DNA of 64,000 nt from Leucobacter musarum subsp. musarum. GTDB taxonomy: Bacteria; Actinomycetota; Actinomycetes; Actinomycetales; Microbacteriaceae. Positions 10,060 through 17,086 of the stretch are shown here, one piece after another; the stretch's first letter is position 1, and each line of letters begins with the position of its first letter. Made by a program: the position numbers and the translations under genes. Where the stretch lies: the NCBI RefSeq assembly GCF_001273845.1, contig NZ_JHBW01000065.1:124001-188000 (forward strand). Direction: 5' to 3'. The notes below the pieces were generated by a model. That model was not told the origin of the DNA. It saw only the letters and a program-made list of their open reading frames with translations, and ran no database searches.

Positions 10060-10665
10060 TTAGACGGCGTGCTGCATCGCGGGCGTACCGAGCCGGTCGA
10101 CCGAGATGCGCGCACCCGACGCGCTGCCCTGATCGTCCTGCTCTGCGACCAGCCAGGCCTCGCCGTTCAAGATGCGGGGCGCTGGAGCGCCGCTGAGCTC
10201 GGTGAGCGCAGCGCGAATGAGCGCACCGTGGGCGACGACGATCGCTCCGGGCGTGTTTCGCAGCGTCCGGGCGAATGCGCTGGCCCCGCGCTGCGCGAGC
10301 GCGTCGAGCCCCTCGGCGTCATCGACGTCGAGCCCGGGCCATCGCGCCGACGCGTCGCTCACGAGGAGGCCCTCGGCTGAACCGAAATCGCGTTCGGTGA
10401 CGTCGTCGACGATCTCGGGCTGCGGCAGACCGAGTCGCGCAGCGATGATGTCTGCAGTGGTGCGCGCGCGATCGAGCGGGGAAGCGATCACGCGGGTCCA
10501 GGGCCCGGTGTCGGCCAGGAGTTCAGCGATCTCCCCGGCCTGCGCGCGACCGCGCTCGTTCAGGGGGATGTCGGTCTGCCCTTGAATGCGGCGTCCGATG
10601 TTCCAGTCGGTCTCGCCGTGGCGCACCACGACGATCGAGGCTGTGGGGCGTGCGGGTTCGCTCAT
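10060..10665 (-). CDS. Histidine phosphatase family protein (phosphoglycerate mutase-like)
   Basis: A 201-aa protein. RHGET at residues 15-19 gives the phospho-accepting His16, and the second half carries the catalytic VVAHG motif near residue 142. ASPLDRARTTADI and ERDFGSAEGL fit the broad-specificity phosphatase branch. It is the last gene of a minus-strand operon; its ATG overlaps the ABC ATPase stop by 4 nt. Substrate unknown; the operon suggests a phosphorylated metabolite. Confidence 0.9.
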   Translation of the reverse strand: MSEPARPTASIVVVRHGETDWNIGRRIQGQTDIPLNERGRAQAGEIAELLADTGPWTRVIASPLDRARTTADIIAARLGLPQPEIVDDVTERDFGSAEGLLVSDASARWPGLDVDDAEGLDALAQRGASAFARTLRNTPGAIVVAHGALIRAALTELSGAPAPRILNGEAWLVAEQDDQGSASGARISVDRLGTPAMQHAV

Positions 10666-11813
10666 GCTCCCACGCTAGCCGGTTGCGTTCGCTCGTGGGC
10701 TGCTACGGGGCGTGCAAGTACCGCATCGCCGGTCTGAGATGCGGCGTCGTGCGGCGATGAGAACAGGGCGACGCGATCGATCTCGATGCGCACCCGGGTT
10801 CCGGCGGCACAGCGCACGCCACTTGCTCGGGAGCGGAGCTGCAGATCGCCCCAGGTGACCACCAGCTCGTCGCCCGAGCAGCCGAACAGCGACGACGTCA
10901 CGGTCGCTTGCCCCGATGGGTCGGCAACCACGCGCACGTGCTCGGGTTGCACCGCAACCTCGCCCCGGCCCGCGGGGAGCCCCGGTGACGCGGGGATCCC
11001 GTTCGCCACAACCCGGTCGACGGGCACGCGGATGGGGAGTCCATCGGCGTGGAACTCGGAGCCGTCGAAGCGACCGGGCAGCACGGTCGCGTCCGAGATG
11101 AATCGAGCGACGAACGGCGAGGCCGGGCGCTCAAGCAGGTCGGCGGGCGCGCCAACCTGCTGCACCCTGCCGCCGTCGAGCACGACGACCCGATCGGCCA
11201 GCGCCAGGGCCTCGCTTCGGTCGTGCGTGACGTGCAGCACGGTCAGGCCGAGTTCGCGGGTGAGAGCGCGGAGGTCGAGGCGCAGGCGATCCCGCAGCGG
11301 TTCGTCGAGTGCCGAGAGCGCTTCGTCGAGCAGCAGCACCCGCGGCCGTGCGACGATCGCTCGGGCGATGGCGACGCGCTGGCGCTGGCCGCCCGACAGG
11401 GTTGCGGGGTTGCGGCGCTCGGCGCCCGGGAGCCCCACGAGTTCGAGCGCTTCGGCCACGCGGCGCGTGCGCTCGGCGCGGGCCACTCCGGCGCGGCGCA
11501 GCGGGTAGGCGATGTTGCGGCCGACGTTCCAGTGCGGCCACACGGCGTGCTGCTGGAACACCATGCCAAGCCCGCGGCGCTCCGGTTCGACGCTGCGGCC
11601 GGGCTGCGACACGACGGCATCGCCGATGCGCACGGTTCCGGCAGTGGGCGCGACGAACCCGGCGACGGTGCGCAGCAGCGTGGTCTTGCCCGAGCCCGAC
11701 GGGCCCACGAGGGCGACGAACTCGCCGTCGCCGATTGCGAGGTCGACGTCGGCGAGGCCGAGGTGACCGCCGGGGTAGGCGAGGCTGACGGAGTCGAGGG
11801 TGACGGATGACAC
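10662..11813 (-). CDS. ABC transporter ATP-binding protein (FbpC/PotA-type)
   Basis: A 383-aa cytoplasmic ATPase. Walker A GPSGSGKTT, the Q-loop FQQHAVWPH, signature LSGGQRQR, Walker B VLLLDEALSALD and the switch HVTHD are all present. A C-terminal regulatory extension of about 140 residues (TOBE-like) includes EVAVQPEHVRVV. The GTG start at 11813 lies 9 nt after the permease stop; the frame runs further upstream only as a shadow of the permease. By similarity it belongs to importers of iron, thiamine, polyamine or phosphonate compounds. Confidence 0.9.
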   Translation of the reverse strand: MSSVTLDSVSLAYPGGHLGLADVDLAIGDGEFVALVGPSGSGKTTLLRTVAGFVAPTAGTVRIGDAVVSQPGRSVEPERRGLGMVFQQHAVWPHWNVGRNIAYPLRRAGVARAERTRRVAEALELVGLPGAERRNPATLSGGQRQRVAIARAIVARPRVLLLDEALSALDEPLRDRLRLDLRALTRELGLTVLHVTHDRSEALALADRVVVLDGGRVQQVGAPADLLERPASPFVARFISDATVLPGRFDGSEFHADGLPIRVPVDRVVANGIPASPGLPAGRGEVAVQPEHVRVVADPSGQATVTSSLFGCSGDELVVTWGDLQLRSRASGVRCAAGTRVRIEIDRVALFSSPHDAASQTGDAVLARPVAAHERTQPASVGA

Positions 11814-11821
11814 GGGGAGTC

Positions 11822-16163: not shown

Positions 16164-16180
16164 TCGCGAGAACCTCGCGA
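16164..16180 (-). terminator. Short perfect hairpin after the RpiR gene
   Basis: Arms 16164-16170 and 16174-16180 (TCGCGAG / CTCGCGA) with a 3-nt loop lie 22 nt after the RpiR stop. The stem is only 7 bp. Confidence 0.4.
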
Positions 16181-16201
16181 GATGCCCTGATCAGTGAGGA
16201 T

Positions 16202-17086
16202 TTACGCGGTGGTTTCGGCGAGGGCGTCGGCCACGACTTCGCGCATCTCGAGCGTGTCGGAGGGGTCGGTGCGCAGGGCGACCTCGGCAACGAGTGCTTG
16301 CAGCAGCACGGAGTGACCGAGCCGGCTGAAGAACGGATCCACCGCGTGCTCGGTGCCGACAGCGCCGGTGCAGAGCGCGACATCCGCCAGGTCGGCGAGG
16401 GGAGAACGCGCGTAGCTGCCCACGGTGATGATGCACGCACCGCGGCGCCGCGCCGCGCGCACCGTGGCGAGCGTGTGCGCGTTCGCACCCGAATGGCTGA
16501 GCGCAAGGCAGACGTCGTCGTCGGTCACGCTGTGCGCGGCGAACTGCTGCGCGAGGATGTCGAGCGGTGCTTCGACCGGTCGCCCGACCGTTGAGAACCG
16601 CATCGCCGCATCTTGAAGCGGCGGCGCCGAGAACCCGTTCGCCGTGCACACAACCCGGCGGGCGCCGGCGAGCGCATCCGCTGCGCGGGTCAGTGCCGCT
16701 CGGTCGACCGTCTGCTGGCCGACGAGCAGCGCGACCCGGGCGCTCTCGAACACCCGATCGACGACGTCGCCTGCGGGAGCCTCGTGCGACGCGGCCGGTG
16801 CGGACTCCCGGGCGAGCTCGAGGCGAACATGCTGAAACCCACGGAACCCGAGTCTCTGGCAGGCCCGGATCACCGTCGCCGTCGACGTGCCCGCGGCGAC
16901 CGCGAGCTCCTGCGTCGACCACTGAGGCACCTCCGCCGCCCGCTCCAGCATCACTCGCGCAACAGCCCCCTCGCTCGGGCCGAGGCCGCCGGCGAGCGCG
17001 CGGATCACCGCGAGCGCGGACCCCGACGGGAGTGCGGTCGCGGTGATGGAGTCGTCGGAACGTGCGTCGAGATCCGGTGCGGGCAT
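16202..17086 (-). CDS. MurR/RpiR family transcriptional regulator
   Basis: A 294-aa regulator from the ATG at 17086. An N-terminal HTH_6 domain (VPQWSTQELAVAAGTSTATVIRACQRLGFRGFQ) is followed by a SIS sugar-phosphate-binding domain (RRVVCTANGFS; LALSHSGANAHTLATVRAARRRGACIITVGSY). RpiR proteins usually sense phosphosugars, which fits the neighbouring phosphatases. A GTG at 17158 would add 24 residues, but TACCGT lies 6 nt before the ATG, the leaderless pattern seen elsewhere in the window. Confidence 0.9.
   Translation of the reverse strand: MPAPDLDARSDDSITATALPSGSALAVIRALAGGLGPSEGAVARVMLERAAEVPQWSTQELAVAAGTSTATVIRACQRLGFRGFQHVRLELARESAPAASHEAPAGDVVDRVFESARVALLVGQQTVDRAALTRAADALAGARRVVCTANGFSAPPLQDAAMRFSTVGRPVEAPLDILAQQFAAHSVTDDDVCLALSHSGANAHTLATVRAARRRGACIITVGSYARSPLADLADVALCTGAVGTEHAVDPFFSRLGHSVLLQALVAEVALRTDPSDTLEMREVVADALAETTA

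Follow-up and report, generated by a model that had tools for sequence, protein, structure and literature searches.

A probable Pho-regulon importer of a small phosphate ester encoded together with three phosphatases in Leucobacter musarum

What does an ABC importer carry when its genes are packed together with those of three phosphatases of different folds? The question is raised by an operon in the window, a stretch of 64,000 nt from Leucobacter musarum subsp. musarum (contig NZ_JHBW01000065.1, positions 124,001 to 188,000). On its minus strand six overlapping or abutting genes (10060-16046) encode a protein tyrosine phosphatase (PTP), a metallophosphoesterase (MPE), a solute-binding lipoprotein, a fused permease, an ATPase and a histidine phosphatase, with the gene of an RpiR-family regulator upstream (Table 1). 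We argue that these genes probably specify a Pho-regulon ABC importer of a small phosphate ester, with a (cyclic) phosphodiester as the likeliest ligand, and that this ester would be hydrolysed in the cytoplasm. An earlier sequence-only reading of this DNA had described six tightly packed genes behind an RpiR gene, and all seven are indeed present by coordinates and by Pfam, where every named fold exceeds its gathering score (His_Phos_1, ABC_tran, BPD_transp_1 in two stretches, SBP_bac_6/8/11, Metallophos, Y_phosphatase3 and HTH_6 with SIS). Four junctions among the six genes are overlaps (4, 11, 17 and 4 nt); the single gap, of 8 nt, lies between permease and ATPase, and 155 nt separate the RpiR gene from the PTP gene. 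The ATG taken as the RpiR start is inferred, as the open frame extends to a GTG at 17158. A scan for sigma-70 promoters and terminators found no site.

Table 1. Genes and predicted sites of the operon, with coordinates in the window
Feature	Coordinates	Strand	Basis or remark
PHO-box-like direct repeat GGTCACCTCGCGTTCACC	17108..17125	-	21 nt ahead of inferred RpiR start codon
RpiR-family regulator (HTH_6 + SIS)	16202..17086	-	Pfam; homologue in 30/37 loci
Palindromic site ATTTCACGCTCGATGTAAC, probable RpiR operator (predicted)	16075..16093	-	In RpiR-PTP gap
PtpB-like phosphatase (PTP), PF13350, P-loop HCTAGKDRTG	15327..16046	-	Pfam and structure comparison
Class III metallophosphoesterase (MPE), closest solved relative Rv0805	14515..15330	-	Pfam and profile
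AfuA-like solute-binding lipoprotein, phosphate-site residues T77, S181, G182	13497..14525	-	Pfam, profile, alignment
Fused two-domain ABC permease	11822..13513	-	Two PF00528 stretches; closest NCBIfam model PhnU2, below cut-off
ABC ATPase, GTG start at 11813	10662..11813	-	Pfam/NCBIfam
Histidine phosphatase, branch 1	10060..10665	-	Pfam; R15 H16 R66 E91 H146

The gene set is shared among relatives. We tabulated 37 loci with a homologue limit of 100 bits, 33 of them distinct: L019, L020, L023 and L025 duplicate L040, L047, L048 and L052, and were kept among the 37 and dropped for counts over 35 loci. The scan of species genomes gave 31 loci; the table excludes L059, a 31% fragment from Nocardia, together with L026-L028, which are paralogues of low identity. 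Homologues of the binding protein are present at all 37 loci, of MPE and permease at 35 each, of the ATPase at 34, of PTP at 32, of RpiR at 30 and of the histidine phosphatase at 26. The gene order, whose absence from related genomes the sequence-only reading had named as grounds for giving up its proposal, is kept in full and on one strand at 22 of the 37 (at L033 it is blurred by an over-long frame). Flanking genes vary among the 11 loci listed, and a shared seven-gene order with differing flanks is more than chance. Contig ends account for missing genes at L023, L031 and L048, the histidine phosphatase of L056 scores exactly 100 bits, L050 comes from a metagenome assembly and its permease frame is broken, and at the 100-bit limit no RpiR homologue was found in L045 or L054-L057. 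Close homologues of the binding protein (E ≤ 1e-100) occur in 8 of 120 genomes of family-level relatives, the window's own included, and within the genus in 20 of 54, so that the gene set is an accessory trait. At one locus, in Leucobacter sp. OH1287 (L045:6301-8001), PTP and MPE are fused into a single protein of 566 residues (Pfam Y_phosphatase3 plus Metallophos), from which we argue that the two enzymes act in the same pathway.

The catalytic residues of all three phosphatases are intact. In the PTP, Cys115 and Arg121 are invariant across 14 aligned rows; by structure comparison the best match is PtpB (Z 23.4, 3.1 Å, 218 residues), followed by a Clostridioides PTP (Z 20.7) and by AtPFA-DSP1 and the inositol-pyrophosphate phosphatase Siw14 (Z about 15). 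Class III metallophosphoesterases carry the metal-ligand motifs D-x-H, GD, GNHD, H and GHxH. The MPE has the whole Rv0805/SpdA/GpdQ set, with D15, H17, D56, N90, H91, H153, H191 and H193 invariant in 14 aligned orthologues; it scores below the cut-off of the equivalog model for the SpdA 2',3'-cyclic nucleotide phosphodiesterase (74.4 versus 400 bits). The histidine phosphatase residues given in Table 1 are invariant in 15 rows, one of which is a Phaeobacter protein. Rv0805 and PtpB are both active on small phosphoesters in vitro. No signal peptide was seen by eye in any of the three proteins and each begins at its enzyme domain; they are therefore probably cytoplasmic.

Importers related to that of the window at 29-42% identity are found on 114 plasmid records, from which we picked 25 by hand for spread, not at random; 24 of these are annotated, and the unannotated L110 (Halomonas) was left out. 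A metallo-beta-lactamase (MBL)-fold hydrolase lies inside the importer block at 12 of the 24 loci, and at 11 it is accompanied there by a phosphatase of a different fold. The companion is a histidine phosphatase in three Paracoccus loci, a histidine phosphatase together with a PNKP-type HAD phosphatase (Pfam) in Phaeobacter and Pacificitalea, a phosphatase of dual-specificity (DSP) or PTP type in P. pantotrophus, Salipiger, Alloyangia and Pannonibacter (Pfam DSPc is below cut-off in all four, and PTP-SAK above it in Pannonibacter only), and SurE, by annotation, in Aminobacter and Nitratireductor. At four further loci the neighbour is a lone MBL (L115), a hydrolase of HAD-IIB type (L111) or, in two cases, a metallophosphoesterase (L117, L156). 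The Phaeobacter MBL is closest to CPSF/beta-CASP ribonucleases. Across lineages, by raw counts over these loci, one transporter type is repeatedly paired with phosphoester hydrolases of differing folds.

Two neighbourhoods of related importers are of a broader phosphorus-linked kind. On a Shinella plasmid (L156:927-7574) genes for ppk2, CorA and the metallophosphoesterase stand directly ahead of the ABC importer. In a distant actinobacterial genome (G444, L091:847-9551) the importer lies between a PhoX gene at the contig end and genes for a SPOR-NAGPA phosphodiester glycosidase, a phytase-like esterase and an MBL hydrolase, apparently a cluster for scavenging phosphorus outside as well as inside the cell.

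The class of the ligand is addressed by the binding lipoprotein. By profile its closest solved relatives are 8x1a (VcA0625, which binds glucose 6-phosphate, G6P), 4r72 (AfuA, sugar phosphates) and 6wce (P5PA, pyridoxal phosphate), all of them binders of phosphate esters, and iron binders come next. The predicted model (mean pLDDT 83) matches AfuA with Z 32.5 (2.3 Å, 300 residues); metal-citrate and iron binders score almost as high, with FbpA-type chains at Z about 30, so fold alone cannot decide the ligand class. In AfuA the phosphate is surrounded by Ser37, Ser148 and Gly149 (according to the available parts of PMC4546632 and PMC8427247). The corresponding residues of the window protein are Thr77, Ser181 and Gly182, and Thr, Ser and Gly stand at these positions in 34 of 34 rows of the surrounding group; the position of AfuA Thr150 is taken by Ala183. 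On the tree, where long branches to the reference proteins were flagged by the program, a single group (90/81) unites 14 proteins from Actinobacteria with 18 from Proteobacteria; Thermus adjoins this group, which stands apart from AfuA, FbpA and the phosphonate-linked protein; AfuA, VcA0625 and P5PA form a group of their own (100/100).

We also looked for a hexose-phosphate signature, which was rejected. AfuA His205 and Glu229 are each required for G6P binding (PMC4546632, available part). In the window protein His205 is replaced in both alignments, by V234 (HMMER) or S236 (MAFFT), and Glu229 by V260 in both, and the third ring residue, Asp206, falls on D235 or L237 depending on the alignment.

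AfuA, VcA0625 and P5PA bind monoesters, and the ligand might accordingly be a simple phosphate monoester, of a pentose, a hexose or a polyol, in the manner of AfuABC; the two phosphatases would then dephosphorylate it, and the MPE would contribute a side activity. An RpiR-type regulator is in keeping with this, and a HAD-IIB phosphatase adjoins the Sinorhizobium meliloti copy. We regard a monoester, a reading that overlaps with our own, as possible though doubtful, since the most constant partner of the transporter is an enzyme of diesterase type (MPE at 35 of the 37 loci, MBL at 12 of the 24 on plasmids), the cutting of diesters being its presumed activity. It is this constancy that leads us to favour a diester.

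A more specific version of the diester reading is speculative, and we consider it rather unlikely: the importers could form a Pho-regulated family, spanning phyla, that scavenges decay products of RNA and DNA (2',3'-cyclic or 3'-nucleotides), the diester being opened inside the cell and the phosphate freed by a lineage-specific phosphatase. The swapped enzymes resemble nucleotide-type hydrolases, namely the SpdA/Rv0805-like MPE, the CPSF/beta-CASP-like MBL, the PNKP-type HAD phosphatase and the SurE-annotated nucleotidase. Among six regulators scanned, the best model was Bacillus-type DeoR for two and ribose RbsR for two, both below cut-off, and for the other two it was a DeoR/GlpR-family model. 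Searches of the open-licence literature found no dedicated importer of 2',3'-cyclic or 3'-nucleotides derived from nucleic-acid decay.

The sequence-only reading had proposed uptake and dephosphorylation of a phosphodiester or a phosphonate-type compound. PhnS2, PhnU2 and PhnT2 are the best NCBIfam models for the three transporter parts, as would suit a phosphonate importer (2-aminoethylphosphonate type) with phosphatases as unrelated neighbours. All three scores lie well below their cut-offs, with 122.9 bits against 392.75 for PhnS2, 142.7 against 593.25 for PhnU2 and 275.7 against 457.7 for PhnT2, and on this ground the phosphonate importer was rejected; among the seven proteins there is no match to a C-P-cleaving family in Pfam or NCBIfam. 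In S. meliloti (L158:2194-10837) a 29%-identical importer stands beside an aminotransferase gene and a gene of the phosphoenolpyruvate mutase family, which suggests a phosphonate branch within the same superfamily; on the tree, however, this relative falls outside the phosphatase-linked group. We judge a phosphonate importer improbable at the window locus, a phosphodiester being the likelier ligand. What stands of the earlier proposal is uptake followed by dephosphorylation, as a scheme for phosphate esters that gene order, relatives and PHO boxes favour; its phosphonate alternative is weakened.

A place in the Pho regulon is suggested by predicted PHO boxes. The core of the Streptomyces coelicolor PHO box is GTTCACC (PMC4415409, available part), and with the consensus from that species we scanned the genome of the window for two GTTCACC-type units 11 nt apart, counting mismatches over 14 positions. 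At ≤2 mismatches 50 sites were observed, against 3 for the reversed pattern, and six sites (two perfect and four with one mismatch) at ≤1. Of the perfect sites one stands ahead of pstS-pstC and the other, on the opposite strand, ahead of the gene of a PHO4-family phosphate transporter; the listed pstS frame begins ahead of its PHO box, for which reason the true start is taken to be a later codon. A site with two mismatches precedes ppk. These three sites serve as a positive check of the motif, and from them a Pho regulon takes shape in this Leucobacter-type genome.

The repeat upstream of RpiR is one of the four one-mismatch sites. The other three lie inside a coding frame, between genes read as glycosyltransferase-type and near a weakly RamB-like gene, that is, without a clear phosphate gene, and a one-mismatch site alone is therefore no proof of a PHO box. 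In the gap between RpiR and PTP in the window no PHO-box pair was found within 3 mismatches. Over the actinobacterial loci, a pair at ≤3 mismatches lies near the operon at 21 of 35, the mean for 150 permuted motifs being 1.8 and the maximum 18. In Proteobacteria (counted without the Thermus loci L112 and L117 and without L110) a motif of CTGTCAT type is present at the same tolerance in 10 of 22 loci, with a permuted mean of 0.65 and a maximum of 5; seven of the ten adjoin a phosphoesterase and three (L114, L157, L161) do not. None of the 150 permuted motifs reaches the observed count at ≤3 mismatches in either group. Two phyla with two different predicted PHO boxes agree. The afuA gene of S. 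meliloti is reported to be PhoB-controlled.

The palindrome in front of the PTP gene is the sole exact match to its pattern in the genome, with two more places at one mismatch; the reversed control has 3 matches. As the exact match is unique, RpiR looks like a local regulator. A looser form of the palindrome is present at 23 of 35 loci, a raw count with no chance expectation beside it.

With PtpB and Rv0805 as the closest structures, the enzymes could also be signalling proteins, a protein-tyrosine phosphatase and a cyclic-nucleotide phosphodiesterase, acting on a transporter unrelated to them. The enzyme folds swap between lineages (MPE or MBL; PTP or DSP, histidine phosphatase, HAD, SurE) around a constant transporter, and PHO-box-like sites are present in both phyla, which makes a signalling role very unlikely. 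An importer of ferric iron like FbpABC would match the public annotation of related permeases, and the fold scores do not separate it from AfuA, but it was rejected and is hardly credible, given that the adjacent Tyr pair of FbpA, whose loss the sequence-only reading had noticed, is Ser236-Leu237 in the window protein and missing in 34 of 34 group rows, so that iron binding by the lipoprotein is unlikely, and that none of the other six proteins falls into an iron-related family of Pfam or NCBIfam.

Most of the fetched plasmid records name their permeases 'iron ABC transporter permease', and for the phosphatase-linked group this label is probably a misannotation. With such labels, expression studies may mix up iron nutrition with phosphorus nutrition. 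In bean bacteroids of Rhizobium leguminosarum two FeT-family genes, one of them afuA3, a possible relative of the present importer genes, are up about 20-40-fold, and the authors, who also find those bacteroids phosphate-limited, nevertheless read the induction as iron limitation (PMC6421345, available part).

For the favoured importer of a phosphate ester we infer the ligand, the order of hydrolysis, the cytoplasmic location of the enzymes and the actual regulation as follows. Under phosphate shortage PhoP would switch the operon on, and RpiR would gate it through an intracellular, probably phosphorylated, metabolite. In the lipoprotein an AfuA-type pocket would grip the phosphate group of the ligand, which the ATPase and the fused permease would bring into the cell. 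There a diesterase, the MPE here and the MBL in Proteobacteria, would open the diester, leaving a monoester from which the PtpB-like enzyme and the histidine phosphatase would free phosphate. Gene order, phosphate-ester-binding relatives, predicted PHO boxes and comparable proteobacterial operons lend this import-then-hydrolyse scheme strong indirect support.

Several observations weigh against it. At the 100-bit limit over the 37 loci, no histidine phosphatase was found at any of the four Cryobacterium loci (L046, L049, L050, L058) or at L057, and no PTP at L022, L046 or L050. In Homoserinimonas (L052) and one f18 genome (L090) the importer has no adjacent phosphatase (Homoserinimonas has two MPE homologues, 40% identical, elsewhere in its genome), and the same holds for 9 of the 24 plasmid loci (L108, L109, L112, L114, L157, L158, L159, L161, L163). 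The two best proteobacterial boxes (L161, L157) precede importers of just this kind. Outside the genome of the window the PHO boxes are mostly 2-3 mismatches off consensus, and the loci that carry them are related, so that the counts overstate independence. One permuted motif came as close as 18 of the 35 actinobacterial loci, and at ≤2 mismatches the observed 9 of 35 was exceeded by one permuted motif with 10. Finally, with AfuA His205 and Glu229 replaced, G6P is probably not what the protein binds.

According to a review (PMC7866108), Streptomyces can draw their phosphorus from sugar phosphates and nucleotides, while evidence of the sugar-phosphate transporter gene uhp is lacking; for other Actinobacteria the operon is a concrete candidate for organophosphate import. 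If the scheme is true, a single transporter type combined with interchangeable folds of diesterase and monoesterase would cleanly exemplify the convergent assembly of an operon. The sequence-only reading knew of no named system with this exact set, and searches of the open-licence literature aimed at such a system, with subscription papers mostly outside their scope, showed no description by title or abstract start.

Among known systems, the hexose-phosphate importer AfuABC is alike in having an FbpA-like binder of phosphate esters that was once read as part of an iron system (PMC4546632, available part). The phosphate-site residues are shared; the two ring residues named above are replaced in the window, the proteins fall in separate tree groups, and joined phosphatases are not mentioned in the available part of that paper. 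The pyridoxal-phosphate binder P5PA has the same phosphate pocket, also with Thr at the Ser37 position (PMC8427247, available part), whereas its ring site differs and its tree group is separate. The PhnS2/T2/U2 models score best for the transporter parts, well below cut-off, but the operon has no phosphonate-degrading genes. The glycerophosphodiester importer UgpBAEC with UgpQ is alike in plan, a phosphate ester entering through an ABC transporter under Pho control with a diesterase coupled to it (PMC7866108, available part); its binding protein is of another type, and the window operon adds two phosphatases. Unlike UgpQ, none of the seven proteins has a glycerophosphodiester phosphodiesterase (GDPD) domain (PF03009, Pfam, E 0.001), and three GDPD genes lie elsewhere in the genome. 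In plan the operon resembles Ugp with UgpQ and in its pocket AfuABC, and by a defining test of each it is a member of neither.

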